From Candidatus Pelagibacterales bacterium (GTDB lineage: Bacteria > Pseudomonadota > Alphaproteobacteria > TMED109), in contig PAZF01000027.1 of NCBI GenBank assembly GCA_002715505.1, forward strand, positions 1-56,730: a stretch of DNA of 56,730 nt. The letters run 5' to 3'. The position numbers and the translations under genes are program-made. Shown one piece after another: positions 1-19,629 of this stretch (positions within the stretch are counted from its first letter, which is position 1; each line of letters starts with the position of its first letter). Below the pieces are notes generated by a model, which was not told the origin of the DNA, made no database searches, and saw only the letters and a program-made list of their open reading frames with translations.

Positions 1-578
1 TTAATAAAAGGTTTTGATAGTTTAGTTAAAACAGTACCGGGATGAATAGCTATTAGTATTAAGTTAGATTTTTTTCTACTTAACTCTATAGAAGATGATT
101 TTACAATTTGGTTTAACGCTGCTTTTGATGCCCTATATCCAAACCAACCTCCTAGGTAATTATCACTTATACTTCCTACTCTAGCTGATAAACAAGCTAA
201 AACTGAATTATTATTATGATCCATGAGTGGAGAAAAGTATTTAATAACTAGTGCATGGCCTATAGTATTAGTCTTAAACGACTTAAATAAATAATTGCTA
301 TTTATTTCAGAAATTTTTTTTTCTGGAAAAAAATCTTTTTCATGCAAATAACCAATAGTATTTATTAGCAAATCTATCTTTAATCCTTTTTGCTTTAAAT
401 CGTTTGCTGCTTTTGATATTTCATTTTCATTTGTAATATCAAGTTTTATATCATTATTTTTACTGTAACAAATAACTCGAGCATAACTTTTACTATTGAT
501 TAACTGCTTTTTAAGAGCCGACCCTATTCCGCCGCCAGATCCTATTAAAACTGCTGTAAAGGCATTTTTATTTTCCAT
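1..578 (-). CDS. SDR-family oxidoreductase, C-factor-like (C-terminus cut by window edge)
   Basis: A reading frame open from the ATG at 576-578 to the window edge encodes about 192 residues of a short-chain dehydrogenase/reductase. Visible are the N-terminal nucleotide-binding glycine motif (GSGGGIG, about residues 13-19), the strand and Asn motif (LLINTIG), a catalytic Ser region (CLSARVGS) and the YxxxK active site (YRASKAA). The ending HPGTVLT is usual after the active site in this family. The arrangement resembles the C-factor/CsgA-like SDR subgroup, whose substrate is generally unknown. It lies 4 bp after an unknown 106-residue gene on the same strand and probably shares its transcript. 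The 3' end is missing. The SDR assignment is firm; the subgroup is inferred. Confidence 0.85.
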   Translation of the reverse strand, partial: MENKNAFTAVLIGSGGGIGSALKKQLINSKSYARVICYSKNNDIKLDITNENEISKAANDLKQKGLKIDLLINTIGYLHEKDFFPEKKISEINSNYLFKSFKTNTIGHALVIKYFSPLMDHNNNSVLACLSARVGSISDNYLGGWFGYRASKAALNQIVKSSSIELSRKKSNLILIAIHPGTVLTKLSKPFI

Positions 579-582
579 TAGA

Positions 583-903
583 TTATTTTTTATTCAATAC
601 AATTTTTCTTAAGGACTGAAGCTTTGGATTATTCTTTTTTGTTACTACTCGGCTTTCTTCATTAGTTTCTTTTACAATATTTATTTCTGTACTAATTAAT
701 TGAGAAATAGCTGTTTGTACACAAGATGAGCTATCTGCTATTGACTTGGAAGCTATTTTACTAATATTGTCATTAGTTTTTGATGCAATAGAAGAAATTT
801 CCCACTCTAGCCTAACTAAAGTATTCAATACTTTAGTCAATTTTTTTATGCTTTTCTCTCTAGAATTTTTTAACTCTTTCATTCGTATTAACTGATTTTC
901 CAT
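583..903 (-). CDS. Hypothetical protein, 106 aa, charged helical
   Basis: I do not recognise this gene. It encodes 106 residues, mostly predicted helix, rich in Lys, Ser and Ile, with a polar heptad-like N-terminal half and no membrane segment or signal peptide. The start is supported by a GGAG ribosome binding site six bases before the ATG (reverse complement of the stretch just above 903). The stop is 4 bp from the start of the following SDR gene, so the two are probably cotranscribed. The 5' side faces a possible small gene on the other strand. Coding is likely from the ribosome binding site and context; function is unknown. Confidence 0.6.
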   Translation of the reverse strand: MENQLIRMKELKNSREKSIKKLTKVLNTLVRLEWEISSIASKTNDNISKIASKSIADSSSCVQTAISQLISTEINIVKETNEESRVVTKKNNPKLQSLRKIVLNKK

Positions 904-951
904 TTTATCTCCAATTACTAAAAAAATTTAATTTAAGTCGTTTATTTTAAT

Positions 952-1143
952 ATGTACTTAAATATTGTAAATAATTTATCTTTTGATAATAAAAGAAAAA
1001 GGTTCGTTTCTAAAAAGAAAGAAGAAGAAAATCAATATGAAGAATTGCCAGTTTCTGAGGATTTTAATAATACTTATGAAATAGTTTATAATTCTGTATT
1101 CTATGGACAGCTTACACAAAATTGGCTCAAATTTAAAAATTAA
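952..1143 (+). CDS. Possible small protein, 63 aa
   Basis: A short forward frame of 63 residues with a Lys/Glu-rich centre (residues 14-32) and an aromatic C-terminus (YGQLTQNWLKFKN). It fills the gap between the divergent 106-aa gene and the PopZ-like gene. No clear Shine-Dalgarno sequence precedes the ATG, and I recognise no family. A frame of similar length on the opposite strand (976-1161) has a composition typical of a shadow. The residue mix is plausible for a soluble protein, but in AT-rich DNA a frame of this size can arise by chance. Confidence 0.3.
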   Translation: MYLNIVNNLSFDNKRKRFVSKKKEEENQYEELPVSEDFNNTYEIVYNSVFYGQLTQNWLKFKN

Positions 1144-1196
1144 TATTTTTATAAAAAACATTTCTTATTTATTTAAATTTCATATATATTAAAAGA

Positions 1197-1637
1197 ATGG
1201 ATAAAAGAAGCCCTGATGATATAAGAAAGTCAATCAAGTCATTAGTAGAAGAAGCGGAAAGTGTTTCTATAGATGATGATGTGAGCGACGATAGTGCTGT
1301 TAATAAAGAAAAAAAAATTAAGTCCAAATTAGAGTCTCCACCATCAAAATTAGAGGACAAATATAAACCTGAAAGCAAAACCACCACAAGTGTAGAAGAA
1401 AAAGATTTAGATCTTACTGGTTTAATTAGCGATGATGTAGCTTTAGCTGTAAGAGCTGAACTTATGAGATATTCCGATGTATTTGATACTGATGACACCA
1501 AAGATATTATTTATAGATCAGTAACAAATGCAACAAGAGAGATGGTGAGAGAGTGGTTAGATCAAAATCTTGCTTCAATAGCTAAAGAAGTAATAAATGA
1601 GGCTTTAGATAAACTTTCTAAAAATGCTAGAAGCTAA
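1197..1637 (+). CDS. popZ: PopZ-like cell-pole organising protein (DUF2497)
   Basis: The 146-residue product has the three-part layout of PopZ/DUF2497 proteins. There is a short N-terminal helix (DDIRKSIKSLVEE, residues 7-19, like the EEILASIRRIIS helix of the family) and a disordered acidic and Ser/Pro/Lys-rich linker (about 20-75). The C-terminal helical oligomerisation region (about 80-146) carries the hallmark WLDxNL motif (REWLDQNLASIAKEVI). In Caulobacter, PopZ forms a polar polymer that tethers centromere ParB and recruits cell-cycle regulators. In many alphaproteobacteria the gene sits before valS; here it meets gcrA tail to tail with overlapping stops. The linker is shorter than in Caulobacter. 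Family assignment is by motif; polar function is inferred. Confidence 0.75.
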   Translation: MDKRSPDDIRKSIKSLVEEAESVSIDDDVSDDSAVNKEKKIKSKLESPPSKLEDKYKPESKTTTSVEEKDLDLTGLISDDVALAVRAELMRYSDVFDTDDTKDIIYRSVTNATREMVREWLDQNLASIAKEVINEALDKLSKNARS

Positions 1638-2020
1638 TCAGTATTTAGCTTAAAAAACTTTTTAATTTTTTGATTATTATCTTTTCTTCTATAAGCTGTC
1701 AAACAGTGTTCACCACAATAAGGTTTTCCAGGGATTACTTCTTTTCCACAAAAATAAAAATCTTCATCTCCAGGGTGCCCGATTGGCCACTTACAACCTT
1801 TCATATTAGCTATAAGTGAATTTATGTTTAACTCTTTTCCAGAAGTCTTATCTGTTTCTCGTTCTTTGAGTTTTTTGGATAAACCTAACCTATTTGCTTT
1901 ACCTATAACCGCGTTCCTGCTAATACTTCCAAGTTTTTCAGCTATTTCTCTTGCAGGTATTCCCTTTGCCCACATATTGGATAACCTATCAACTTTACTT
2001 TTTGTCCAGTAGTTTTTCAT
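1634..2020 (-). CDS. gcrA: GcrA cell-cycle regulator
   Basis: The 128-residue protein begins with the GcrA DNA-binding domain: a WT..V..L..MWA.G.. helix, then IAEKLGSISRNAVIGKANRLGL (about residues 6-48). A variable linker follows. The C-terminal sigma70-interacting region carries the paired Cys pattern CKWPIG...FCGKEVIPGKPYCGEHC (about 79-108). GcrA is a sigma70-associated regulator restricted to alphaproteobacteria that activates promoters, often through methylated GANTC sites. The gene converges on the PopZ-like gene and their stop codons overlap by 4 bp, leaving no room for a terminator between them. Assignment is firm from both conserved ends. Confidence 0.93.
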   Translation of the reverse strand: MKNYWTKSKVDRLSNMWAKGIPAREIAEKLGSISRNAVIGKANRLGLSKKLKERETDKTSGKELNINSLIANMKGCKWPIGHPGDEDFYFCGKEVIPGKPYCGEHCLTAYRRKDNNQKIKKFFKLNTD

Positions 2021-2062
2021 GGTGATTTAATTTAAAATAAAATGCTATAATATATTATAATA

Positions 2063-3817
2063 ATGATCTTTAATAGAAAAAAAAATAATATTAATACATT
2101 TAAGCTATATATATCTCTTATATTAAAGTGGGGAAGATCACAAAAGAAAAATTTTATAATAGCTAATATTTTGATGATATTAGTAGCTGCTGTAACATCA
2201 TTATATCCTATTGCAATAGATTTTGCTTTCAACGCAATTAATAACAAAAACCTTAAGGATTTGATGTATATTCCGATCTTCATAATTATTTTAACGGTGG
2301 CTAAAGGAATTTCTTATTTTTATCAAACAATATATGTTGGAAAAATATCCAATAGTGTAATCAAAGAAATACAATTAAATTTATATAATAAAGTTGTTAA
2401 TTTTGATATTTTGTTGATGGGGCAGTTTAAGCAAGGCTCTTTACAATCAAGATTCATAAATGACTTAAATATACTTCGTGAAGCAATAACAAGAATTTTA
2501 AACAATTTAATAAGAGACTTATTTACTTTATTTGGCTTGTTGATAAGTATGATCTATTTAGATTGGTTGCTAACATTATGTGTAATATTGATTTATCCTT
2601 TATGTATTAAGCCTATAATATTTATTGGCAAATCAACTAGAAAACATTCACTAAAACTACAGGAAAAAATAGCATCTGCAGGAGCATTTTTAAGCGAGAG
2701 TTTTTCTTCTATTGCTGTAATAAAAACTTTTAATCTTGAGGGCTTGCAAAAGAAAAAAGCAGAAAAAAAATTCTCTGATATTTATAGAAAAAATATTGAA
2801 ATAATTAGAGTAAGATCTAAAGTAGAGCCTACTCTAGAGATAATAGGAGGACTTGCTATTTCATCTGTTATTGTTATAGCAGGATTGCGAGTTAATTCAG
2901 GACACATTGATATTGGTTCTTTTTCAGGTTTTATTAGTGCTCTTTTGATAGCTGTTCAACCTGCTAGAGCTCTCGGAACTCTTAATACTGTTTTACAAGA
3001 GGGTGGTGCATCATTATTAAGATTAGATGATATTTTAAAAAAAGAAAATAAGATTATTTCAATTAAGAAACCTAAAAGTTTTGAAAAAGTTAAAGGTGAA
3101 ATTACTTTTAAAAATATTTTTTTTTCCTATGATAAAAAAATTAATTCCTTAAATTCCATAAATATAAAAATTAAAGCTAGAGAAAATCTAGTGCTTGTTG
3201 GATCTAATGGATCAGGAAAATCTACTTTTATAAATTTAATACCAAGACTAATAGACCCATACAAAGGTAAGATAAGTATAGATGGTATAGACATAAAGTC
3301 CTTAGAGATAACAAAACTAAGATCAAAAATATCTTTGGTTTCGCAAGATATTATTTTATTTGATCTAAGTATAATAGAAAATCTAAAACTTGCTAATGAA
3401 ACAGCTAATTTAGATGATATAATAAAAGCTTGTAAAATAGCAGATGCACACAACTTCATAACAAAATTCAAAAATGGGTATAAAACTATCGTAGGGGAAC
3501 GAGGACTAAAACTTTCTGGTGGTCAAAGGCAAAAAATAGCGATAGCTCGAGCACTGTTAAAAAAACCTAAAATCTTGCTGCTTGATGAAGCAACAAGTGC
3601 TTTAGACAATTTCTCCGAAACAAAAATACTTAGAAGTCTAAACCAATATACCAGAAATATTACTACAATTACTATTGCGCATAGAGTAAGCACTATTTTA
3701 AACGCTAAAAGAATATTATTTTTTAAGGATGGTAAAATAGTAGATCAAGGAAAGCATATGCAATTAATGAAAAAAAACCTTGAATACAAAAAACACTTTT
3801 TAACTAATTACAATTGA
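2063..3817 (+). CDS. ABC exporter, ATP-binding/permease half-transporter (MsbA type)
   Basis: The 584-residue half-transporter has an N-terminal six-helix exporter membrane domain (about 1-320) and a C-terminal ATPase. Walker A is GSNGSGKST (380-388), a Q-loop lies in VSQD, the signature is LSGGQRQK (from 484), Walker B is ILLLDEA (about 504-510), and the switch His is in TIAHR. The layout fits the MsbA/lipid-flippase group, which moves lipid A or other lipids across the inner membrane as a homodimer using ATP. LPS assembly genes elsewhere in the window make a lipid A role reasonable, but such half-transporters also export drugs or peptides. It is a single gene between gcrA (divergent) and a phosphatase (convergent). 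Confidence 0.9.
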   Translation: MIFNRKKNNINTFKLYISLILKWGRSQKKNFIIANILMILVAAVTSLYPIAIDFAFNAINNKNLKDLMYIPIFIIILTVAKGISYFYQTIYVGKISNSVIKEIQLNLYNKVVNFDILLMGQFKQGSLQSRFINDLNILREAITRILNNLIRDLFTLFGLLISMIYLDWLLTLCVILIYPLCIKPIIFIGKSTRKHSLKLQEKIASAGAFLSESFSSIAVIKTFNLEGLQKKKAEKKFSDIYRKNIEIIRVRSKVEPTLEIIGGLAISSVIVIAGLRVNSGHIDIGSFSGFISALLIAVQPARALGTLNTVLQEGGASLLRLDDILKKENKIISIKKPKSFEKVKGEITFKNIFFSYDKKINSLNSINIKIKARENLVLVGSNGSGKSTFINLIPRLIDPYKGKISIDGIDIKSLEITKLRSKISLVSQDIILFDLSIIENLKLANETANLDDIIKACKIADAHNFITKFKNGYKTIVGERGLKLSGGQRQKIAIARALLKKPKILLLDEATSALDNFSETKILRSLNQYTRNITTITIAHRVSTILNAKRILFFKDGKIVDQGKHMQLMKKNLEYKKHFLTNYN

Positions 3818-3822
3818 AAAGC

Positions 3823-4491
3823 CTATTCTCTATTTAAAATTTTATCCACTATGAAGCTATGAAATTTGTATATTTTAAATGATTCTTTTAATTTGTCTTT
3901 TTTATAATCACTATCTATCCATCTTAAAAACTCTTTAGACGTGGTTTTTTTATTATTAATTGCTGTAAGAAATAGATGATCTAAGATACCTGTTTTTGCA
4001 TATTTAATGTGTAAATATTTAAAAGATAATTGTTTATAGGCTGTATTTACATCATAATTGTGCTTATAAATTAAATATAAGCATGATGCTATTCCAGCTC
4101 TATCAGCACCAGATTTGCAATGCATTAAGGCAGGATATTCAATAGTATCAATTAATGAAAAAAAATCTTTTATAGTTTTTTTTGATGGTAAGTCTCTAGA
4201 GGTAATGGGAAAATTATATAATTTTATATTATTTTCATTACAACATTCTTTCTCTAGAAAATATGAAGAACAGTTTCTTTTACCCCTCAAATTAATTATG
4301 GTTTTAATATCGTACATTTTTTTGTATTTTAAAATTTGATAAGGATAGGGTTGGTTGCATCTATACATGGAACCAGGCAATTTGAAAAGCGAGGTCCAAA
4401 ATATTCTTAATATACCATGATCTGAAAAAGTCAGATCTAAATACGATAAAAATTTATTTAAAAACCCGCTAGTTAAACCTCTTTGCCACAT
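3823..4491 (-). CDS. Tyrosine/dual-specificity phosphatase family protein
   Basis: The 222-residue protein carries the CX5R phosphatase signature HCKSGADRAG, with nucleophile Cys125 and phosphate-binding Arg131. Upstream is a typical strand-turn (IKTIINLRG, about residues 62-70) and an Asp in the general-acid loop region (around 100). It belongs to the tyrosine-phosphatase superfamily found as single genes in many alphaproteobacteria. Substrates are uncertain: phosphotyrosine, or a lipid phosphate as in PTPMT1-like phosphatidylglycerophosphatases. It faces the MsbA-like exporter tail to tail with only 5 bp between stops, which fits but does not prove a membrane-lipid role. The ATG is preceded by a weak GAAAG site. 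Confidence 0.8.
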   Translation of the reverse strand: MWQRGLTSGFLNKFLSYLDLTFSDHGILRIFWTSLFKLPGSMYRCNQPYPYQILKYKKMYDIKTIINLRGKRNCSSYFLEKECCNENNIKLYNFPITSRDLPSKKTIKDFFSLIDTIEYPALMHCKSGADRAGIASCLYLIYKHNYDVNTAYKQLSFKYLHIKYAKTGILDHLFLTAINNKKTTSKEFLRWIDSDYKKDKLKESFKIYKFHSFIVDKILNRE

Positions 4492-4573
4492 AATTTACTT
4501 TCACATAGATAAAATATTAAAATAGTATAAATTATTAATTTCATATTATTTAAAAAAAAACAATTAAAATACC

Positions 4574-4714
4574 ATGTCTGTAAAAAAGGAAATTAGAAAA
4601 AAGATTTTGGAAGAAGAAATGAAAAAGAACTTGCTCAGAAGAGTTTCTAAAAAAGGTAAAAAAAAAATAATTGATAAAAATTCTAAAGGAGAAAAAAATG
4701 ACAATAATGTCTGA
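4574..4714 (+). CDS. Possible Lys-rich small protein coupled to dcd, 46 aa
   Basis: A 46-codon frame starts at the ATG at 4574 and ends at the TGA at 4712-4714, overlapping the first codons of dcd in another frame. The product is highly basic (starts [19 protein letters not shown], then runs of Lys/Arg), and the N-terminal half looks like an amphipathic helix. The dcd ribosome binding site lies inside it, so translation could be coupled. No clear Shine-Dalgarno sequence precedes its own ATG, and I know no family for it. In A-rich DNA a Lys-rich frame can be accidental. Confidence 0.35.
4687..4691 (+). promoter_or_regulatory. Ribosome binding site fixing the dcd start
   Basis: AGGAG lies six bases before the ATG at 4698. 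This selects the start giving the usual 184-residue Dcd, instead of a longer in-frame alternative beginning at 4671. Confidence 0.75.
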
Positions 4715-5252
4715 TAATTGGATCGCAAAAAAAGCAAAAGAGGATAAAATTATAGAACCTTTTGAAAGTTCACAGGTAAGAAAAGGCAAAATATCTTTCG
4801 GATTATCAAGCTATGGTTATGATGCTCGAGTTGCTGATGAATTTAAAATATTTACAAATGTAAATAATGCATTAGTAGATCCAAAAGATTTTAATAATGA
4901 AGGTTTTGTTGAAAGACAAGCTGACACATGTATAATTCCTCCTAACAGTTTTGTACTTGCAAGAACAGTGGAGTATTTTAGAATTCCTAGAGATGTTTTG
5001 GTTGTTTGTTTAGGAAAGTCAACTTATGCAAGATGCGGAATAATAGTTAATGTTACACCACTAGAACCAGAGTGGGAGGGACATGTAACTTTAGAGTTCT
5101 CAAATACAAGTCCTCTTCCAGCAAAAATTTATGCAAATGAAGGAGCTTGTCAATTTTTATTTTTTAGAGGCGAAGAGCCTCCTAGACAATCTTATGCTGA
5201 TAAAAAAGGAAAATATATGAAACAAAAAGGGGTTACTTTACCAAGGTTATAA
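4698..5252 (+). CDS. dcd: dCTP deaminase
   Basis: The 184-residue enzyme deaminates dCTP to dUTP, feeding dTMP synthesis. Characteristic segments are [20 protein letters not shown] near the N-terminus, the nucleotide-binding [10 protein letters not shown], and the core [18 protein letters not shown] containing the catalytic Glu. The end QKGVTLPRL is typical. The length equals the usual alphaproteobacterial Dcd when started at 4698, where a good Shine-Dalgarno sequence is found. It begins the long forward run; the stop is one base before the murA start, so the two are surely cotranscribed. Confidence 0.96.
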
Positions 5253-5253
5253 T

Positions 5254-6531
5254 ATGGAAAGTATAATAATATCTGGTGGAAATAGTCTTTCTGGAACTAT
5301 AGAATGCTCGGGTTCTAAAAATGCTTCTTTGCCTATATTAGCTCTTTCAATTTTGACAAGTAATTTAGAAATTAAAAATATTCCAAATTTAGCTGATGTA
5401 AAATCAATGTTAAATCTACTTAATAGCTTAGGAGTACATCATAGTTATGTAAATAAAAATAACAAAAGTAATATTTTGTTAGAAAACTCAAATAAAATTT
5501 CCTCTTTAGCTGAATATGATTTGGTTAGAAAAATGAGAGCTTCTTTTTTAGTTTTAGGGCCTTTATTAACTAGAAATGGATTTGCAAGAGTATCACTTCC
5601 TGGAGGATGTGCGATAGGCTTAAGACCAGTAGATCTTCATATTTTTGCTATGAAAAAACTAGGCGCTGATATCGAGTTAATAGATGGGTATGTAATTGCT
5701 AAGGCAATAAAAGGTAAATTAATTGGGAATAAAATTATTTTTCCTCAAGTATCAGTAGGGGCAACTGAAAACGCTATTATGGCTGCAATTTTTGCAAGAG
5801 GAGAAACGCTTATAGAGAACGCAGCAAGGGAGCCTGAAGTACAAGATCTATGTAACTGCCTTATTTCTATGGGCGTGAAAATTGATGGAGTTGGGAGTTC
5901 TACTATTTATATTGAAGGAGTAAATAGTTTGAATAAAGTCAGCTATAATGTAATATCTGATAGAATTGAAGCTTGTTCTTTTATCATTGCAGCTGCTATT
6001 ACAAAAAGCAACTTAGTCATTAAAAATATTAATTTAGATCATATTCAATCTTTCCTAATTGTAATGAAAAGCATGGGGCTTAAATTTAAAGCTCAAGAAA
6101 AATCAATCGAAGTATTTGAAAGTGGAGACTTAAACCCTATAGATTTAAAAACCTCAGCTTATCCTGGCTTTCCAACCGATATGCAAGCTCAAATTGTAAC
6201 ATTAGCTTGTTTTTCCAATGGAGACTCAGAGGTAAAAGAAAATATTTTTGAAAATAGGTTTATGCATATTCCTGAGTTAAACAGATTGGGAGCCAATATA
6301 ACTATTGAAGGAAATAGAGCTATAATTAGAGGAAAAAGTAGTTTTGTTGGAGCAGAAGTAATGGCGACTGACTTGAGAGCTTCAGTTTCATTAATTTTAG
6401 CAGGGTTGGCAGCGAAAGGTACTACAAAGGTTAATAGAGTTTATCATTTAGATAGAGGTTATGAAAAAATAGATGAAAAACTTTCATCATGTGGAGCAAA
6501 TATTTACAGAAAAAAAAATGAAAAACCCTGA
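5254..6531 (+). CDS. murA: UDP-N-acetylglucosamine 1-carboxyvinyltransferase
   Basis: MurA transfers enolpyruvate from PEP to UDP-GlcNAc, the first committed step of peptidoglycan synthesis, in the cytoplasm. The 425-residue protein has the N-terminal GSKNASLPILA motif (about 20-30), the active-site loop PGGCAIGLRP with Cys119 (the fosfomycin-target cysteine is retained), YPGFPTDMQAQ in the second domain and ATDLRASVSLILAGL near the end. The length is normal. It lies 1 bp after dcd, and its 3' end overlaps the next gene, a DUF2948 protein that commonly follows murA in alphaproteobacteria. Confidence 0.97.
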   Translation: MESIIISGGNSLSGTIECSGSKNASLPILALSILTSNLEIKNIPNLADVKSMLNLLNSLGVHHSYVNKNNKSNILLENSNKISSLAEYDLVRKMRASFLVLGPLLTRNGFARVSLPGGCAIGLRPVDLHIFAMKKLGADIELIDGYVIAKAIKGKLIGNKIIFPQVSVGATENAIMAAIFARGETLIENAAREPEVQDLCNCLISMGVKIDGVGSSTIYIEGVNSLNKVSYNVISDRIEACSFIIAAAITKSNLVIKNINLDHIQSFLIVMKSMGLKFKAQEKSIEVFESGDLNPIDLKTSAYPGFPTDMQAQIVTLACFSNGDSEVKENIFENRFMHIPELNRLGANITIEGNRAIIRGKSSFVGAEVMATDLRASVSLILAGLAAKGTTKVNRVYHLDRGYEKIDEKLSSCGANIYRKKNEKP

Positions 6532-6955
6532 AAAAAACTGGAAACCATTAAAATTAAAGGCTGTGGATGATAGAGATTTATCTATTTTTTCAGATTGTAT
6601 ATACCAATCCATATTTGTTTCGTCAGAGGTGCATTTTAATAAAGAAAAAAAATCTTTTTCATTAGCTCTGGAGAGATTTACTTGGGAATTAGCTGAAGGA
6701 AAGGACTATAATCTTAGACAAGTGCTATCTATTTTAACTGTGAATGGTGTCAAAAAAATAGATGCAAAAAATATTTTTTTTAACAATCTAATTTATAATG
6801 TGCTATCTATAAGTAATGTTGACGACAATATACTTATTTTACTTAATGACAAAAATATTATTAATCTTGAAGTATACGAATGGAGCTGCTTTCTTGAAGA
6901 CTTGGATAAGCCCAAATGGCCGGCAGTAACTCCTTCTCATTTGCGAAATGACTGA
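6518..6955 (+). CDS. DUF2948 family protein
   Basis: The 145-residue protein matches the DUF2948 layout: [22 protein letters not shown] at the N-terminus, an [11 protein letters not shown] strand-turn (about 42-55), and a [23 protein letters not shown] region at the end. Function is unknown. The family is mostly found next to murA and hisD in alphaproteobacteria, as here. I place the start at the ATG at 6518, overlapping the end of murA by 14 bp; a longer in-frame start at 6473 would extend further into murA. The stop overlaps the hisG start by 8 bp, so translational coupling is likely. Confidence 0.85.
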
Positions 6956-10917: not shown

Positions 10918-12381
10918 ATGAAATTATCTCAATCACTTACTTTCGATGATGTTTTAATAAGACCGGGTTACTCTAGTATTATGCCTAGGGAAGTTGAAAC
11001 CAAGACAAAGTTTTCATCTGAAATAGAAATCAATATTCCAATTATATCAGCAGCTATGGATACAGTCACTGACGGAAGGCTTGCTATCTCAATTTCTCAG
11101 TGTGGAGGAATTGGTGTTATCCATAAAAATAACTCTATAGAAGATCAAGTTATAGAAGTAATCAAAGTAAAAAAGTATGAGTCTGGAATGGTAGTAGATC
11201 CAGTTACAATTTCCGAAGAGTCTACCTTATTTAACTTAATGGAATTAAAAAAGAAATACAATATTTCTGGTTTTCCAGTAGTAGATAAAAATAATAAAGT
11301 AGTTGGAATTATTACTAATCGTGATGTTCGTTTTTCTAAAAATCTTAAACAACCCATTAAAGAACTTATGACAAAAACTAAACTAATAACATCTGAAAAG
11401 GGTATATCAATAAAAAAAGCCTCTGACATTCTTAGAAAGAATAAAATAGAAAAATTAATAATTATAGATAAATATAAAAGATGTAAAGGATTGATAACGG
11501 TAACAGATATTGAAAAATCAGAAAAATATCCTTTAGCTACAAAAGACAATATTGGAAGACTTAGGGTAGCTGCTGCAATAGGAGTAGGAGAGGATGGATT
11601 AGATAGAGCTGAAAGATTAGTAGAGGCAGGTGTAGATGCATTAGTTTTAGATACAGCCCATGCACATTCTAAAAGAGTCATAGATACTATAAAAGAGCTT
11701 AAGAAAAAATTTAAAGATAGAGTCCAAATAGTTGCTGGTAATATTGCGACCTCTGAAGCAGCTTCAGAACTTATAAAATATCCTATCAATGGAATTAAAG
11801 TTGGAATAGGCCCAGGTTCTATTTGTACTACTAGAGTTATAGCTGGAGTAGGAGTGCCACAATTTAGTGCTATTGTGGAAGTTTACAAGCAGAGTAAGAA
11901 AAAAAATATACCTATAATAGCTGATGGAGGCGTTAGATATTCTGGGGATGTAGCTAAGGCCATAGGTGCGGGGGCAGATAGTGTGATGATTGGTTCTTTA
12001 TTAGCAGGGACAGAAGAGTCTCCAGGGGAAGTTTTTCTTTATCAAGGTAGATCTTATAAATCTTACAGAGGAATGGGATCTTTAGCAGCAATGGAAAGGG
12101 GTTCCTCTGATAGATACTTTCAACAAGATGTTGAAGATAAATTAAAATTTGTTCCAGAAGGAGTTGAGGGAAGAGTTCCTTACAAAGGAGCAGCTTCCGA
12201 GGTAATATTTCAATTGGTAGGTGGTTTAAGAGCTGCAATGGGATATACCGGAAATAAAAATATTAAAGAGATGAAAAACAAATGTTCGTTTATAAAAATT
12301 ACACAAGCTGGCTTCAAAGAAAGTCATATTCATGACATTGCGGTAACTAGAGAAGCTCCAAACTACAAAACAGAAAAATAA
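10918..12381 (+). CDS. guaB: Inosine-5'-monophosphate dehydrogenase
   Basis: IMPDH oxidises IMP to XMP with NAD, the rate-limiting step toward GMP. The 487-residue protein has an N-terminal barrel part ([15 protein letters not shown]), two CBS domains (about 90-200) and the catalytic loop [18 protein letters not shown] with Cys303. [31 protein letters not shown] binds phosphate, and a flap with [10 protein letters not shown] follows. The length is normal. It precedes rsmB by 1 bp, and guaA follows two genes later, so the two GMP branch enzymes share an operon. Confidence 0.98.
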
Positions 12382-12382
12382 T

Positions 12383-13639
12383 ATGAAAAAAGGAGCTATT
12401 ATTGCTTCTTCAATAGAATTGGTTTCTCAAATATTAACCAGTAATACAAAAATTAAATTTATAATAAGTAGTTTTTTTAGAAAAAATAAATTTGCTGGTT
12501 CTAAAGATAAAAATAATATAAAAGAATTAGTTTTTAAGTTTCTTAAAAACTATTTTACTCTAAAAGCTATATGTATAAATAATCATATTAAATTCTCTGA
12601 CAGAAATGCAATGTTACTATTATATTTTTCTAAAAATAAAGATAAAAATTTAAATGAAATTTATGAAGGAAGGTTTTCTATCAAACCTGAATTCGAAGAC
12701 AAGAGAATTCATAGTTACGCCACATCACTTGAACATGATATTATCCCTAGTCTTCCCAATTGGCTTGAAGAAAAGTTATCATTTGAGTTTAAAACAAAGA
12801 AAAAAAATAATTTTGAGTCTATTCTAAACGAGCCAAGGTTTGATATTAGAGTAAATAATAGTGTGATAGCGAGAGATAAAGTATCTAATTTATTATTACA
12901 AAATAATATATTATCAAAAAAAACCAATTTTTCACCTTTAGGTATAACTATAGAAAAAAGGGTTTTAGAAAAAGAAATAAAAAAAATCAAGCAAAACTTT
13001 TTTGAGGTTCAAGATGAAGGGTCTCAGATAGTAACAATCTTATCTGGTGCTAAAAGTGGCATGAGAGTATTAGATTACTGTGCAGGGAAAGGAACAAAAA
13101 CCCTAGCAATATTCAACGAAATGAAAGGAATTGGAGATATTTATGTTAATGATATAGATGAAAATAGGCTAAGATTGTTAAGAAAAAGACTCGCATTTTT
13201 AAAAATAGATAACGAAGCTAATACTTTTAGTGATAAAAAAAAATTTGAAAGTTATTTCGATTTAATATTGTTAGACGTACCATGCTCAGGTTCAGGTATA
13301 TGGAGAAGAAGGCCAGAATCCATTATAAGATTAAACAAAAATGAGTATAAAAAAAATACTGAAATTCAAATCGATCTATTAAATAAGGTTGTTAAATATT
13401 GTAAAAAAGGTGGGATAATTTCCTATATTACATGTTCTATCTTTAAGGATGAAAATGAAAATCAAATTAAAAAATTTTTAGCAAATAATAAAGCTTTCAA
13501 AATATTAGATATAAATCTAATATTAAAAAATAAATTTAATCATACTAATTTAAATAGTTCTTATAAATGGTTAACAATTACGCCAAGCTTTTTAAATTCT
13601 GATGGTTTTTTTATTTGTTTGTTAAAGAAGTATGCTTAG
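12383..13639 (+). CDS. rsmB: RsmB/Fmu-type RNA cytosine-5 methyltransferase
   Basis: The 418-residue SAM-dependent enzyme has the RsmB/NOP2 arrangement: an N-terminal helical region (about 1-150), a substrate-binding linker, then the catalytic fold. SAM motif I is VLDYCAGKGTKTLA (from about 230), motif IV is LDVPCSGSGIWRRRPES with the PC cysteine, and motif VI is SYITCSIFKDENENQI with the catalytic TC cysteine. Both cysteines of the m5C mechanism are kept. The family modifies 16S rRNA C967 in E. coli; the exact target here is inferred. It lies between guaB and guaA, a usual alphaproteobacterial placement. Confidence 0.88.
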   Translation: MKKGAIIASSIELVSQILTSNTKIKFIISSFFRKNKFAGSKDKNNIKELVFKFLKNYFTLKAICINNHIKFSDRNAMLLLYFSKNKDKNLNEIYEGRFSIKPEFEDKRIHSYATSLEHDIIPSLPNWLEEKLSFEFKTKKKNNFESILNEPRFDIRVNNSVIARDKVSNLLLQNNILSKKTNFSPLGITIEKRVLEKEIKKIKQNFFEVQDEGSQIVTILSGAKSGMRVLDYCAGKGTKTLAIFNEMKGIGDIYVNDIDENRLRLLRKRLAFLKIDNEANTFSDKKKFESYFDLILLDVPCSGSGIWRRRPESIIRLNKNEYKKNTEIQIDLLNKVVKYCKKGGIISYITCSIFKDENENQIKKFLANNKAFKILDINLILKNKFNHTNLNSSYKWLTITPSFLNSDGFFICLLKKYA

Positions 13640-14087
13640 AAAAATTTTAAAAATCTTTATTTATTTATTTTTTATTAATAGTTTATATGCTGCTAAAGAA
13701 GGATCTGGGTATAATCGTGGATTGAAAAAAAATATAATATCTAAAATCACAAAAAATTTAGATAATAACAATTATGAAAAAGCCATATCTTTATTAAAGG
13801 TAGAAATAGCAAAAGATAAAAAAAATGCAGAGTTGTACAACCTAATGGGGTATGCATATAGAAATTTAAACAATTTTGATTTGTCCATAAAGAACTATAA
13901 AAAGGCATTAAATATTAAGCCAAATCACTTAGGTGTACATAATTATATAGGCATAGCTTATTTAAGAATAGGAAACCTGTATAAAGCGAAAGTGCATTTA
14001 CTAAAACTTAGAGAATTGTGTAAGGGAAAGTGTAATGAGTATAAAAATCTTAAAAAAGAACTAAGCGATAATAAAAAAAATGAATAA
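13632..14087 (+). CDS. Exported TPR protein, 151 aa
   Basis: A small protein with a Sec-type signal peptide (RKILKIFIYLFFINSLYA, cleavage near Ala20-Ala21) followed by tetratricopeptide repeats. Two are clear: AELYNLMGYAYRNLNNFDLS (about 59-78) and the next at LGVHNYIGIAYLRIGNLYKA. A Cys pair (CKGKC, about 131-135) may form a disulfide in the periplasm. TPR domains mediate protein-protein contacts; no partner can be named. The start overlaps rsmB by 8 bp and the stop overlaps guaA by 8 bp, so it is coupled to both neighbours although its function is not obviously related. Confidence 0.8.
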   Translation: MLRKILKIFIYLFFINSLYAAKEGSGYNRGLKKNIISKITKNLDNNNYEKAISLLKVEIAKDKKNAELYNLMGYAYRNLNNFDLSIKNYKKALNIKPNHLGVHNYIGIAYLRIGNLYKAKVHLLKLRELCKGKCNEYKNLKKELSDNKKNE

Positions 14088-15636
14088 TAATTTGAAAAAA
14101 GTTTTAGTAGTTGATTACGGAAGTCAAACTACACAACTAATTATAAGAAGAGTAAGAGAGATTGGTATGTATTGTGAAATGATTACTTATAATATATTAC
14201 CTTCTTATATTAAAAAAAATAAGCCTCAAGCTATAATACTATCTGGAGGACCTGCTTCCTCTTTTGAAAAAAAATCTCCAAAAATCGACAGTAACATATT
14301 TAATTTAGGAATACCTATATTAGGCATATGTTACGGTATGCAGATAACATGTCAAATTTTAGGTGGTAAAGTGAAAAATACCAAGAAAAGAGAGTTCGGA
14401 AAAGCAGAAATAAAATTACTAAAAAGCAGTTTGCTTTTTGAAAATGTAGGAAAAACTAAACTTTCTTCTCAGGTATGGATGAGTCATGGTGATGAAGTTA
14501 CTGATCTACCTGAAGGATTTATAAAGTTAGCTACTACTGAAAAAAATAACATTGCTTCTATTGGAAATTTAAAAAAAAAAATATACGGTCTACAGTTTCA
14601 TCCAGAAGTTATACATACAATTAAAGGAAAGTTAATTATTGAAAACTTTTTAATGAGAATATGTAAATTAAAAAAAAACTGGAAAATGGAAAACTTTCTA
14701 GAAAGTCAAATATTGAAGATAAAGAATATGGTAAAAGAAGAAAAAGTAATATGTGGTTTATCTGGAGGAGTAGATTCATCAGTAGTTGCTGCTTTATTGA
14801 GTAAAGCTATTGGAAAAAAATTAATATGTATTTTTGTTAATCATGGGTTCTTAAGAAAAGATGAGGAAAAAGAAGTTATTATAAACTTTAAAAAATATAT
14901 GAACTCTAAACTTATATATATTAACGCTAAATCTTCTTTTTTTAAGAAACTTAGAAATGTAACTGATCCAGAAAAAAAACGTAAGGTTATTGGGAGGGAA
15001 TTTGTAAGAATATTTGAGATAGAAGCAAAAAAAATAAAGAATGCTAAATTCTTAGCCCAAGGGACCTTGTATCCAGATGTTATAGAGTCTAAAAAAATAG
15101 ATGGGGCAGGAAGTAAGGCAATAAAGTCTCATCATAATGTAGGAGGGCTTCCTAAAAGATTAAATTTAAAGTTAATAGAACCTTTAAGAGAATTGTTTAA
15201 AGATGAGGTAAGAGAATTAGGAAAAGAATTAGGTTTACCTAGGAATATAATTCAAAGACATCCGTTTCCAGGCCCTGGGCTGTCAATTAGAATACCAGGA
15301 AAAATTACAAATAAAAAAATAAATATTTTAAAAGAAGCAGATAAAATTTATATAGATGAGCTTCTTAAAAATAATCTATATAATAAAATATGGCAGGCAT
15401 TCTGTGTTCTTTTACCTGTAAAAAGTGTAGGGGTTATGGGAGACAGTAGATCTTATGAATACACAGTATCTATCAGAGCTATTACCTCTACTGATGGTAT
15501 GACAGCAGACATCTATTATTTTAGAGAAGAATTTTTGAAAAAGCTTTCTGGAAGAATTATAGGGGAAGTTAACGGAGTCAACAGGATTTTATTTGATATA
15601 ACTAGCAAGCCTCCGGCTACAATTGAGTGGGAATAA
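14080..15636 (+). CDS. guaA: GMP synthase (glutamine-hydrolysing)
   Basis: GuaA aminates XMP to GMP. The 518-residue protein has the class I glutaminase domain (nucleophile Cys84 in LGICYGMQ, FHPEV His/Glu near 175-177). The ATP-pyrophosphatase domain carries the P-loop GLSGGVDSSVVAALL (about 224-238), and the dimerisation domain includes RHPFPGPGLSIRIPG and the invariant end PPATIEWE. The length is normal. It closes the long forward operon. Its last 21 bases and the following 25 recur about 1.5 kb downstream (17150-17195), which marks the gene end as the attachment site of an inserted segment. Confidence 0.98.
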   Translation: MNNNLKKVLVVDYGSQTTQLIIRRVREIGMYCEMITYNILPSYIKKNKPQAIILSGGPASSFEKKSPKIDSNIFNLGIPILGICYGMQITCQILGGKVKNTKKREFGKAEIKLLKSSLLFENVGKTKLSSQVWMSHGDEVTDLPEGFIKLATTEKNNIASIGNLKKKIYGLQFHPEVIHTIKGKLIIENFLMRICKLKKNWKMENFLESQILKIKNMVKEEKVICGLSGGVDSSVVAALLSKAIGKKLICIFVNHGFLRKDEEKEVIINFKKYMNSKLIYINAKSSFFKKLRNVTDPEKKRKVIGREFVRIFEIEAKKIKNAKFLAQGTLYPDVIESKKIDGAGSKAIKSHHNVGGLPKRLNLKLIEPLRELFKDEVRELGKELGLPRNIIQRHPFPGPGLSIRIPGKITNKKINILKEADKIYIDELLKNNLYNKIWQAFCVLLPVKSVGVMGDSRSYEYTVSIRAITSTDGMTADIYYFREEFLKKLSGRIIGEVNGVNRILFDITSKPPATIEWE

Positions 15637-15661
15637 TTTCTAAAAAAATAGTCAATAAAAA
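15616..15661 (+). repeat. Left attachment-site copy (end of functional guaA)
   Basis: This copy covers the last six sense codons of guaA (ATIEWE), its TAA and 25 following bases. It aligns without gaps to 17150-17195. In the coding part only three bases differ, all at third codon positions (GCT/GCA, ACA/ACT, GAA/GAG). Five mismatches lie in the 25 bases after the stop. Confidence 0.75.
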
Positions 15662-15680
15662 CAATAACTTAATTTCAGAG

Positions 15681-15690
15681 TTACCAAGTA
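15681..15690 (+). repeat. TTACCAAGTA repeat, left end, copy 1
   Basis: This 10-mer lies about 20 bp inside the left attachment copy. It recurs in the same orientation at 15765-15774 and 17103-17112, and with its last base changed at 17092-17101. It is a candidate arm-type recombinase site. The same word also occurs by chance elsewhere in the window, for example at 29101, so the clustering is the evidence. Confidence 0.45.
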
Positions 15691-15764
15691 CTGCAACTAT
15701 AGCGAAGAATGATTGCAAAACTAAATTATTGTTCGAAAACAGGGAAAAATGATACAAAAAATTG

Positions 15765-15774
15765 TTACCAAGTA
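15765..15774 (+). repeat. TTACCAAGTA repeat, left end, copy 2
   Basis: Second left-side copy, 84 bp from the first, in the same orientation, within ATTGTTACCAAGTAATTTCA. It is a candidate arm-type site of the guaA-integrated segment. Confidence 0.45.
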
Positions 15775-15856
15775 ATTTCATAAAAAACAACTAAGTTTCC
15801 ACATTTTCTTCACGCATATCTTCATTTTTACATATACATTTTGAGGAAGTTTTAAG

Positions 15857-16048
15857 TTACTTGCCTGGAAATTTAAATGAAAAATTTATTTTCTTTTCTG
15901 CATTCAAACATTCTACTTTACTAGAATAAAAAAGTCTTAATTCAATTTCTTTTGTTTCTAGAGTAGAACTAAAAGAACTAAGTTCTATAAATATTATATC
16001 ATCTGGTTTTAAAAATTTTTCTATTAAATTTTTATATTTAAGATTAAA
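15857..16048 (-). pseudogene. Probable C-terminal gene fragment without a start
   Basis: On the minus strand a frame of 63 sense codons runs to the TAA at 15857-15859 with no ATG, GTG or TTG near its 5' end. The peptide looks like real protein, with a hydrophobic strand PDDIIFIELSSFSS followed by ETKEIELRLFYSS and ending INFSFKFPGK, not like AT-rich noise. I recognise no family. It lies inside the guaA-bounded segment, so it may be the remains of former cargo. It fills part of the 442-bp gap between guaA and the next gene; otherwise that gap holds only the repeats listed. Confidence 0.35.
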
Positions 16049-16078
16049 TTAAATATAATTATATTAAAGAGAGGTTAT

Positions 16079-17014
16079 ATGAAAATTATTTTATTTTTAA
16101 TCTTAGCAATCAATTTTTTTAAATTGAATGCAATTGATCTGGGTGATATAGGTGACTCTATAAAAAAAGATCTAGGTGGTATAGTTGATGAGTTGAAAAA
16201 TGAATTAGAAGAAACTGATGCTAAAAATAAGGAAGGTATCAATAACAACAATTCTAATCTTGAAAGAATGGACTGTATTTTCAAGGGAAAACATTTAGAA
16301 AAAAATGTTAGAGTTTTAGGGAAAGCACGATGTGATGAATTGCAAGCAGAATGGAAAAAAGAGGAACTAGAAAAAGAAAAGTTAGCGAAACAAAAAATTA
16401 AAGAGAGCCAGCAACAAGCATTAGAAAAAGAAAAACGTGAAGAAAAAAAGAGAGAAACTGCTGCTAAAAATGCAAACGCTAAGAATGCTAAAATAGAACA
16501 AATAAAAAATTCTCGTAAAGATAAAACAGGTAAATGGGGTTTTAATTTTCAAATGAATCATCCAGAAGCAGAAAAAGTATGCAACCAAGGAAATATTGCT
16601 CCATTAAATTTTAATTGTAATATAAACGGCAAACAAATTGTTTTAAAATTTTCAAACTTATTAGACGATAATAGACCTTTCGATGAAGCATATATTGATA
16701 GAATTTCGCTTAGCATGGGATTATATACAAAAGATAGTTTTAATAAAACTTACGAAAAACTTTCTAGTAAATATAAACTCTTATATAAACCATCTGGAGA
16801 AGATCAAGAAAATTATAAAAAAGGTTTTATGCCACTAAATTATTATTTTAAAAATAGGTTTAATGAAGATGCTCCTAAGTATATAGGTTTGGAGGTTCGG
16901 CCTGTTAATAAAAAGAATTCTTTTATGTATGTTCATTATTTAGATAAAAACTATTTCGTGAATAATATACAAAAAAATAAAGAGAAAAAAAATGAAGTCT
17001 TAGACGATTTATAG
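16079..17014 (+). CDS. Exported protein of unknown function, coiled coil plus C-terminal domain
   Basis: The 311-residue protein starts with a Sec signal peptide (KIILFLILAINFFKLNA, cleavage near residue 18). A short amphipathic stretch follows (DIGDSIKKDLGGIVDELKNEL), then a long Glu/Lys/Ala-rich coiled coil (about 95-150), and a C-terminal globular domain beginning at GKWGFNF (about 158). Four cysteines lie in two pairs (MDC...ARC near 62-82; VCNQGN...FNC near 170-181) and could form periplasmic disulfides. A good AGAGAGG site precedes the ATG. I recognise no domain. It is the only intact gene between the two guaA-end copies, so it is the cargo of that segment. The C-terminus is Lys/Asn-rich. 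Confidence 0.72.
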   Translation: MKIILFLILAINFFKLNAIDLGDIGDSIKKDLGGIVDELKNELEETDAKNKEGINNNNSNLERMDCIFKGKHLEKNVRVLGKARCDELQAEWKKEELEKEKLAKQKIKESQQQALEKEKREEKKRETAAKNANAKNAKIEQIKNSRKDKTGKWGFNFQMNHPEAEKVCNQGNIAPLNFNCNINGKQIVLKFSNLLDDNRPFDEAYIDRISLSMGLYTKDSFNKTYEKLSSKYKLLYKPSGEDQENYKKGFMPLNYYFKNRFNEDAPKYIGLEVRPVNKKNSFMYVHYLDKNYFVNNIQKNKEKKNEVLDDL

Positions 17015-17091
17015 TAATAAATTTATTATATAATATTTCTTTCCTTTGGAGAATAAGTTGCTGATTTTTTATACATTATTGGAAAACTTTA

Positions 17092-17112
17092 TTACCAAGT
17101 TGTTACCAAGTA
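17092..17112 (+). repeat. Tandem TTACCAAGT repeats at the right end
   Basis: Two copies in direct tandem: TTACCAAGT (17092-17100) and TTACCAAGTA (17103-17112), separated by two bases. They lie about 38-58 bp inside the right attachment copy and match the two left-side copies in sequence and orientation. Candidate arm-type recombinase sites. Confidence 0.5.
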
Positions 17113-17149
17113 AAAATGAAACCAATACTGACAGTAGATTACAGAGAAT

Positions 17150-17195
17150 GCAACTATTGAGTGGGAGTAATTTCATTAAAAATAGATAATAAAAA
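17150..17195 (+). repeat. Right attachment-site copy (displaced guaA end)
   Basis: GCA ACT ATT GAG TGG GAG TAA at 17150-17170 again encodes ATIEWE-stop, but no GMP synthase frame leads into it. A further 25 bases also match the sequence after guaA. This is the expected trace of the original gene end displaced by an insertion that brought its own guaA tail. Confidence 0.75.
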
Positions 17196-17274
17196 AATTG
17201 TATAAATATTAAGATAATATAATTACCCTATTCTTATTATTGAATGATATGAGCCATTTAAGTATTAACTTAAT

Positions 17275-17299
17275 CCTCTCTAGCAAATAGTTTGAGAGG
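17275..17299. terminator. Hairpin downstream of the Cys-rich gene
   Basis: CCTCTC (17275-17280) and GAGAGG (17294-17299) form a six-base-pair stem with a 13-base loop. It lies 17 bp beyond the stop of the Cys-rich gene on the minus strand. No strong T tract follows on either strand, so termination is only a possibility. Apart from the repeats, this hairpin is the only structure seen in the 301-bp gap 17015-17315. Confidence 0.3.
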
Positions 17300-17315
17300 G
17301 TATCAAATCTTCTTT

Positions 17316-17468
17316 TTATTCTGTACAACAGTCAACTGAGTCACTGCAACAACCATCACGGCAACAACTGTTACTACACTCTCCAGTATTGCAACCTTCA
17401 CTGCAACATCCGTCTGCACAACATGTTTTTTTGCAGCAAGTTTCTGCATTATCTATCTGTATAATCAT
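17316..17468 (-). CDS. Cysteine-rich mini-protein, 50 aa, metallothionein-like
   Basis: The frame from ATG (17466-17468) to TAA (17316-17318) encodes 50 residues with 14 cysteines. An AGAGG ribosome binding site ends five bases before the ATG, and a TATAAT box lies further up. Cysteines sit at 11,12,16,17,21,22,26,31,35,36,40,41,47,48. Positions 11, 16, 21, 26, 31, 36 and 41 form an exact five-residue period (core CCKKTCCADGCCSEGC). The spacers are small polar or acidic residues (Asp, Gly, Ser, Glu, Asn). There is no signal peptide, so it is cytosolic. Density and spacing suggest metal-thiolate binding, but CC doublets differ from the CxC pattern of known bacterial metallothioneins. A modified-peptide precursor is an alternative. 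It lies just outside the guaA segment. Confidence 0.7.
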   Translation of the reverse strand: MIIQIDNAETCCKKTCCADGCCSEGCNTGECSNSCCRDGCCSDSVDCCTE

Positions 17469-17488
17469 CTAAACCTCTATTTTTTTTA

Positions 17489-17494
17489 ATTATA
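17489..17494 (-). promoter_or_regulatory. -10 box for the Cys-rich gene
   Basis: Read on the minus strand, TGTATAAT contains a perfect TATAAT (17489-17494), about 20 bases before the ATG. The -35 region (ATATTA near 17512-17517) is weak. With this spacing the untranslated leader would be short and include the AGAGG site. Confidence 0.4.
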
Positions 17495-17619
17495 CATTTT
17501 ATAAAAATAAATAATATCTATATGCATCATTATAAAAACTAATTTCTAGACTTCTTTTAAGTATAAAAACCTTTTCAGCAAGACTATTATTAATATTGAA
17601 TATATTGAAAATAAATTTT

Positions 17620-19629
17620 CTAAACTTTCAAAGGTGTTATCATATTTGGATATGTATGAAATTCGTTAAGGGTATTCCACCTATCTATCATTCTAGAGCG
17701 AAGATATAAAAAGTGACCAGACTTCACAAATTGAGTTTCACTTATATTAACCTTTAAGGCAATTTTTTTTTCAAAATCAAACATCTTTTCTATTTCAGGA
17801 CGAATTATTTGTAAATCTTTTAAAAATTTCTTTTTATTTTCCTCAACATATCGAAATCTTACATTAAAAGGATAGAATAGTGTATCTAGAATAAAACGAT
17901 CATTTAAGCTAAATATATTATCTATCTTAGACTTTGGCATATTTCCAAATGCAGGCATATTAGGACTACTATTATCACCCCACCAAATTTTATTCTGAGC
18001 AGTCATTTTATATAAGCATTTTTTATTTTCAATACCGATCCAATCACAAAGTTTCAAAATAGTTTTTTTTGGTTTGCTTTTAATATCCTCCAAACGAACA
18101 CCAATAGAGTTTCTATTTCTAAAAACAATATTATCAATTTCAAAAAGCATTGTTTGAATTTTCATTACTATTTCATTGTAATTATTATCTTTATAGGAAT
18201 TGGCTATCCAGGATGCACAGCTTTCTACCGGATTACGTACCATCATCAACCAGTTAGAATCAGGAGAATAATTAAGGAAGTTTAGCATTGCATATGTGTC
18301 TGGAGCATGAATATGATAGAATATTATATCTTTATCTTTAGTATTACCTAGAGTTCTTTCATATGCTACGTGAACCATTTTAAAAAAAATAAATTGGTTT
18401 ATTTCGTTATGTTGATCCATCAAATATTTAAGTTCTTTTCTAAATAAATTTTTATCAATATAAAGATACTCGTTTTTATTTTTTCCTAGATTAGTCATGC
18501 CTTCCTTGACTCCTAAATATTCAATATTTTCCATATTTTTTGAAGGAACTGCATCTGGAGACCTAGAATCAAAAAAAACTGGATAACTTGATATAAATTT
18601 ATCTATTACTTGTTCCCGGCCTCCTTCTATGATTTTTTCCCAAACACTTCCATCAAAATATTGACTGAAATAGATGCTAGGAATTGTAGAGATTTTTGAA
18701 TGACTGTCTATAAGACTATGTAATAGACCAGTTCCACTTCTACCGAAGTGGATTAAAGAAATAATTTTTTCTGGCAACGATATTTGAATATTTTTTTTAT
18801 TTTCATTTTTTTTTATATTTTTAATATTTAATTTAGTTGTTTTATTAACTTGTTTTATTGCCTTATCAAAAAAAACTTTTTTATTTTTTTTTCCTTCATT
18901 TAATTTATAATCTAAGATTAAAAATCTTAAAGCATTTAGCTTAATAGATGTCTGTTTAAAATTTTTATAATTGTATTCTTTTTCATAATTACTTAGAGAA
19001 CTAATTATTTTCAATGGAAAATAAATATTGTTCCATGCCTTTGTATAATGAGGGTTAATTTTAATTGCTGTTAAAAAACTATTTATAGACTCTCTTAATC
19101 TACCTTTTTCTAAAAGAGTATTTGCTAAATTACCGTGATAATTAAAGTTTTCTGGCTTTAAAGAGATCGCTTTTTTATAATTAATAATTGATTCTTCTAA
19201 TTTACCTAGTTTTTTTTGTACTAGGCCTAAGTTAAAATATCCATCTACGTTATTATTATCTAGCTTTACAGAGAAATTAAGCGAGCTTTCTGCTTCCATT
19301 AATTTATCAAGATCTAATAAAATTACACCTAGATTATTGTAGGCTTCAGCATCATTAGGTGCTAACTTGATGGCTTTTAAATTAGCATTTAAAGATTCCA
19401 TCTTCTTTCCTGTTTTTAGATATATACTTCCTAATAATTTCCATACAAATTGATTAGAAGAAAATTTTTCTATTATTGATAAAGCTATATTTTCAGCTTT
19501 TTTATATTCGCCTCGAGTGTAATATGCTATCAAAGGTTTTATTTTTTGCTGAGATAATTCTATATTATTAATGTGTTCTAATTTACTCTTGATAGTATTT
19601 CTTTCTTTTTCCAATTTAATTTTTCTCAT
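17620..19629 (-). CDS. TPR-sulfotransferase fusion protein
   Basis: The 669-residue protein has about five tetratricopeptide repeats (roughly 28-200; for example AEAYNNLGVILLDLDKLMEAE and DGYFNLGLVQKKLGKLEESI) joined to a sulfotransferase domain (about 288-560). The PAPS 5'-phosphosulfate loop is HFGRSGTGLLHSLIDSH (294-310) and the 3'-phosphate motif is MMVRNPVESCASW (about 462-474). It would transfer sulfate from PAPS to an unknown acceptor, perhaps a surface glycan, lipid or protein presented by the TPRs. No signal peptide is seen, so the enzyme is probably cytosolic. No PAPS-synthesis genes are nearby. The fusion type occurs in marine bacteria; acceptor and role are unknown. It is upstream of and codirectional with the Cys-rich gene. 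Confidence 0.82.
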   Translation of the reverse strand: MRKIKLEKERNTIKSKLEHINNIELSQQKIKPLIAYYTRGEYKKAENIALSIIEKFSSNQFVWKLLGSIYLKTGKKMESLNANLKAIKLAPNDAEAYNNLGVILLDLDKLMEAESSLNFSVKLDNNNVDGYFNLGLVQKKLGKLEESIINYKKAISLKPENFNYHGNLANTLLEKGRLRESINSFLTAIKINPHYTKAWNNIYFPLKIISSLSNYEKEYNYKNFKQTSIKLNALRFLILDYKLNEGKKNKKVFFDKAIKQVNKTTKLNIKNIKKNENKKNIQISLPEKIISLIHFGRSGTGLLHSLIDSHSKISTIPSIYFSQYFDGSVWEKIIEGGREQVIDKFISSYPVFFDSRSPDAVPSKNMENIEYLGVKEGMTNLGKNKNEYLYIDKNLFRKELKYLMDQHNEINQFIFFKMVHVAYERTLGNTKDKDIIFYHIHAPDTYAMLNFLNYSPDSNWLMMVRNPVESCASWIANSYKDNNYNEIVMKIQTMLFEIDNIVFRNRNSIGVRLEDIKSKPKKTILKLCDWIGIENKKCLYKMTAQNKIWWGDNSSPNMPAFGNMPKSKIDNIFSLNDRFILDTLFYPFNVRFRYVEENKKKFLKDLQIIRPEIEKMFDFEKKIALKVNISETQFVKSGHFLYLRSRMIDRWNTLNEFHTYPNMITPLKV

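Follow-up and report, generated by a model that had tools for sequence, protein, structure and literature searches.

The window, by which we mean the whole 56,730-nt stretch of DNA analyzed here, contains a short gene for a cysteine-rich protein, and this gene is real, strongly conserved and common to several open-ocean bacterial lineages. Its product is very probably a cytosolic metallothionein-like protein belonging to a family outside the libraries that were searched. The protein would most likely hold several Zn(II) ions as a reserve or buffer, with Cu(I) or Cd(II) as possible occupants. We infer the cytosolic location, the binding of metal, the identity of that metal as zinc and the storage or buffering role. 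Most likely, the protein represents a type of metallothionein not described before, one that lacks the usual Cys motifs.

The gene was predicted in an earlier note as a 50-residue frame containing 14 cysteines, and our analysis confirms it on the minus strand with every described position correct (Table 1). The translation is MIIQIDNAETCCKKTCCADGCCSEGCNTGECSNSCCRDGCCSDSVDCCTE, with Cys residues at positions 11, 12, 16, 17, 21, 22, 26, 31, 35, 36, 40, 41, 47 and 48. Both the five-residue period that runs through positions 11-16-21-26-31-36-41 and the neighboring cysteines that complete the CC doublets (12, 17 and 22 toward one end, 35 and 40 toward the other) can be read directly from this translation, as claimed. 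When the window was simulated 60 times with a third-order Markov model, no 40-residue open stretch had more than 8 Cys, versus the 14 observed, and runs of five Cys at period five were never produced, versus three overlapping occurrences in the gene. The GC content of the gene is 39.9%, compared with 27.8% for the window. The mean pLDDT of the 50-residue protein in an AlphaFold2 model is 56, a value that fits the expectation for a chain that would be folded by metal and disordered in the apo form, though it is not diagnostic. No signal sequence was recognized on inspection of the protein.

Table 1. Coordinates of the cysteine-rich gene and of flanking sequence elements in the window
Feature	Coordinates	Strand	Remarks
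Cys-rich gene (putatively metallothionein-like)	17316..17468	-	ATG start; 50 aa; open frame with Cys-invariant homologues
Shine-Dalgarno-like AGAGG	17474..17478	-	5 nt before ATG; from sequence
TATAAT string, doubtful promoter role	17489..17494	-	~21 nt before ATG; from sequence
Second TATAAT string	17529-17534	-	From sequence
Inverted repeat CCTCTC...GAGAGG, candidate terminator	17275..17299	-	Downstream of stop; without T-run

The ribosome-binding site anticipated in the earlier note is present as a Shine-Dalgarno-like sequence. The proposed TATAAT box is less convincing: two such strings exist, but a consensus scan of positions 17150-17650 yields no sigma-70-like two-hexamer site, versus 3.6 on average in shuffled sequences. 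The inverted repeat that follows the stop codon has a fold z-score of -0.97, which is not exceptional.

The Cys pattern CCx3CCx3CCx3Cx4Cx3CCx3CCx5CC (position steps 1,4,1,4,1,4,5,4,1,4,1,6,1) is identical in 24 of 25 aligned copies. The exception is the second copy in genome G431 (L007:7443 onward, G431:C5), where one repeat unit and two Cys have been lost, leaving 12. The region upstream of this shortened copy is similar to the one before the only full copy of G432 (L046). Among the 24 genes that keep the full spacing, the 14 Cys never vary, yet each of their codons is found as both TGT and TGC; pairwise dN/dS has a median of 0.11. Strong purifying selection therefore acts on every one of the 14 Cys and on the spacing between them. 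Loss of the frame or of its cysteines in close relatives, named beforehand as evidence that would count against the gene, is not what we observe: the frame is open in approximately 24 distinct relatives, with 14 of 14 Cys invariant. The comparison suggested at the same time, for conserved cysteines with drifting spacers, shows that in these relatives the 14 Cys are frozen and the spacers drift. Across the 25 copies, the protein is 42–52 residues long with 12–14 Cys and no more than two aromatic residues, and the chain is mostly acidic. Histidine is absent from 18 copies and present in seven, never more than once. The least conserved segment in the alignment comprises residues 1-10.

Ten loci, from SAR116 or uncultured Alphaproteobacteria, were found on scanning 84,980 species genomes. 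The gene is present in four of 28 genomes of the window's family (whole-genome search) and in five of 385 genomes sampled across the class, counting the window's own. Within the methylotroph order TMED127 (Methylaequorales; the order of G035), 17 of the 32 genomes carry it, as does one of 27 genomes of a third alphaproteobacterial order (G130). Among 398 genomes sampled over the phylum, there was no carrier besides the window's own genome. One of the TMED127 loci (L006) comes from AG-892-F10, the reference single-cell genome of that order (PMC12542740), and its protein is identical to that of the copy in G266. The protein tree separates the SAR116 copies from those of TMED127 (support 94/89) and places the G130 copy, on a long branch, with the SAR116 side; the tree is too short for dating transfers, with one fork in 16 starred. 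No relative of the protein was found in plasmid and phage collections searched with tblastn or in two scans of IMG/VR, so the gene does not look phage- or plasmid-borne in those collections. The intact gene is absent from G422, where two decayed fragments lie at L050 (G422:C17:10530-10598, 12218-12283), one of them still positioned behind the TTAATTGATACTTAT promoter element. The patchy presence of the gene, together with the solely decayed copies in G422, indicates that it is dispensable: it is under selection where kept, yet can be lost.

The most informative genomic setting is that of TMED127 genus g16. Here, a Fur-family gene lies downstream of the intact gene in the same orientation, ~190 bp away in most loci (~100 bp in L044; a UPF0114 gene intervenes in L045). 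This Fur-family gene is closest to Zur, scoring 98 bits with NCBIfam PRK11639, which is under the cut-off of 167. Beyond it, on the opposite strand, Pfam and NCBIfam matches identify DUF3299, an FtsX permease with a His-rich loop and an ABC ATPase. By analogy, this zur-like/DUF3299/FtsX/ABC cluster resembles the Zrg zinc operon. The His-rich loop of the FtsX-type permease, seen in L005 and its g16 orthologues, is long and probably metal-binding. The window's own genome contains a zur-ZrgA-ABC-DUF3299 cluster as well, on contig C30 and unlinked to the Cys-rich gene; at this locus (L057, G000:C30:1500-14000; positions 154-6918), a zur-like gene heads ZrgA (PF10986), an ABC ATPase, a permease and DUF3299. 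L057 also encodes a divergent His-rich protein of 448 residues without a Pfam match, a MerR regulator and an HMA protein.

In SAR116 and the other TMED127 genera, the Cys-rich gene is not beside zinc genes. It lies near glmS/glmU or elsewhere in those TMED127 genera, and its SAR116 sites are varied: guaA is close by in the window, L004, L039 and L040, whereas L003 and L002 have integrase-type genes nearby. The copy in G130 (L041) adjoins a phage-type integrase. The varied sites and integrase-type neighbors make mobility of the gene plausible. The stretch between guaA and a TPR gene (window positions 13632-19629) is partly common to the window and L004, and the Cys-rich gene and its TPR neighbor are oppositely oriented relative to guaA in the two, suggesting a local inversion. 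A separate observation concerns G408, where a 155-residue protein (L049:7454-7918, minus strand) consists of near-perfect repeats of ~17–18 residues (GFDDPFTSSINEGAIGS) after a signal-like start.

The intergenic region between zur and the outer-membrane protein gene in the window's own genome contains a palindrome, ATTGCAATAATATTGCATT, that is a candidate Zur site. Using this palindrome and published Zur consensuses, no Zur box above shuffled background was found upstream of the Cys-rich gene at any locus. A distinct element, AATTGATACTTAT, is located 44–58 nt before the start of the gene in four TMED127 genera and has drifted in g284 and g290. Its exact 16-bp form, TTTAATTGATAYTTAT, occurs once per genome in four of six TMED127 genomes, always at the Cys-rich gene, and is absent from the other two. 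A role as a shared metal operator was considered for the 16-bp element and rejected, since it is found at the Cys-rich gene alone in those four genomes; it is therefore a private promoter element.

Searches of Pfam gave no meaningful match for the protein, the one line listed being a keratin-associated family (PF13885; E 2.4, 8.5 bits, cut-off 27). No match was obtained from NCBIfam, PHROGs or PDB sequence searches. PF02069 (Metallothio_Pro, the SmtA type) did not match up to E 10, and genes of this family were found in none of 11 carrier genomes, with Synechococcus elongatus serving as a positive control. By profile comparison, then, the protein is not a member of the tested SmtA-type family. 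It nevertheless displays the broad traits of a metallothionein: it is small and very Cys-rich, has few aromatic residues and, on inspection, no signal peptide, and its Cys are conserved with the spacers free to vary. Neither CxC nor CxxC occurs in any of the 25 copies. With this motif content and no PF02069 match, the proposal that the gene encodes a metal-thiolate protein unlike the CxC-type metallothioneins is the best reading. We found no earlier description of a Cys-ladder protein in the open-licence literature; an earlier report elsewhere is possible.

In the mechanism that we propose, the 14 invariant Cys would stay reduced in the cytoplasm and wrap a multinuclear metal-thiolate cluster, folding an otherwise floppy chain. 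In cells whose zinc supply is very low and fluctuates, several Zn(II) ions would most likely be kept in this way as a safe, buffered reserve. We take zinc to be the likeliest metal for two reasons: the sole metal genes that recur beside the Cys-rich gene are zur-like and Zrg-like, and a marine Synechococcus uses Zur to switch on its metallothionein for zinc banking (PMC9337993). Zinc is favored only by that zur/zrg neighborhood, which is confined to one TMED127 genus, and by the Synechococcus precedent. More tentatively, the protein might define a structurally new class: a Cys-only ladder of strict five-residue period, free of CxC and CxxC, whose CCx3CC units build a repeating metal-thiolate architecture unlike that of SmtA, spread between the abundant ocean bacteria of SAR116 and TMED127 and used in zinc banking under a Zur-linked or private regulator.

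The same kind of protein could instead have Cu(I) as its physiological metal or a role in Cd/Cu detoxification, in which case it would buffer against toxicity and not store zinc; we regard this as rather unlikely. Ligand sets made up of thiolates alone, with few His, are well suited to Cu(I) and Cd(II). A Met/His-rich outer-membrane-like protein is encoded 2–4 kb downstream in genus g290 (L007, L046), most lineages have no zinc genes beside the Cys-rich gene, and carriage as resistance cargo would fit the integrase-type genes close to L041, L003 and L002. The named metal genes that repeatedly adjoin the gene are, however, zur-like and Zrg-like alone, and no copper regulator, CopA or CopZ is among the matches listed for the neighbors scanned. 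A redox or thiol reserve, or a chaperone for Fe-S or metal delivery, is improbable as a substitute for a storage protein. A gene with a rhodanese domain is a neighbor in L040, and some TMED127 loci have a DoxX gene close by; both point in that direction, but these are single-lineage neighbors and no partner protein is fixed across lineages. Moreover, 14 exactly spaced Cys are more in keeping with a scaffold for a cluster than with a chaperone, which would have one or two metal sites.

The earlier note had also raised the possibility of a precursor peptide for modification. A RiPP precursor or bacteriocin-like secreted peptide would be small and Cys-rich, and in g16 there is an ABC ATPase/FtsX pair nearby whose ATPase has a bacteriocin-export subfamily as its best NCBIfam match, below cut-off. 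This pair accompanies DUF3299 and zur, however, and is in that respect Zrg-like. The protein has no leader-like segment, as its Cys start at residue 11 and the ten residues before them are those that vary most, and its frozen Cys pattern is the reverse of the core and leader diversity of RiPP precursors. No radical SAM, YcaO or lanthipeptide enzyme and no processing protease appear in the Pfam matches of the neighbors (best 25 of 32 and best 25 of 26 families). We therefore consider modification of this kind very unlikely. Smaller still, to the point of being negligible, is the probability of a chance open frame opposite something else. A frame of only 50 residues is easily overlooked, but this one has orthologues in several genera and three orders in differing contexts, with Cys conservation, a dN/dS of 0.11 and a Cys content beyond the Markov expectation. 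A spurious frame is excluded by conservation of the frame and its Cys across the three orders.

Little is known about how heterotrophic ocean bacteria store metal, and no metallothionein is mentioned in the SAR116 paper PMC12262181 or the TMED127 paper PMC12542740. A family so far confined to such bacteria would offer a marker of metal banking for ocean metagenomes and metatranscriptomes. Its CxC-free, strictly periodic Cys pattern would also provide a clean test of which cysteine layouts build metal clusters.

Small, Cys-rich metal-thiolate proteins include mycobacterial MymT and the eukaryotic Cu or Cd metallothioneins, from which the present protein differs in its exact five-residue Cys ladder and in matching nothing in Pfam, NCBIfam or the PDB by sequence. 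Five-residue CC repeats are shared with the hair keratin-associated proteins of PF13885, but those are animal, structural and disulfide-bonded, and the likeness would be one of convergent composition only. The SmtA/PflQ2MT-type metallothioneins are a further parallel, as small, Cys-rich, cytosolic proteins of marine or free-living bacteria with a likely metal-thiolate cluster. Unlike that type, the protein described here has CC doublets and Cx3C in place of CxC or CxxC, and is usually without His. It contains 14 Cys, versus nine in the Cys9His clusters of PflQ2MT (PMC7387436), and no SmtB/ArsR neighbor was seen at its gene.

Two further systems bear on the link to zinc. In the Zur-repressed zinc operon ZrgABCDE of Vibrio parahaemolyticus, ZrgE is a DUF3299 protein and ZrgBC form an ABC permease/ATPase (PMC9817125). 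Although the described operon does not include the Cys-rich protein, both TMED127 and the window's genome likewise have DUF3299 and an ABC permease/ATPase beside a zur-like gene. In marine Synechococcus WH8102, the metallothionein gene bmtA, which serves zinc banking, is activated by Zur and adjoins a gene with weak similarity to phage integrase (PMC9337993). BmtA belongs to another sequence family, and the Zur link in our case takes the form of adjacency in one genus, with no Zur box found, but the two systems have in common an oligotrophic marine host, an association with Zur and integrase-type genes nearby.
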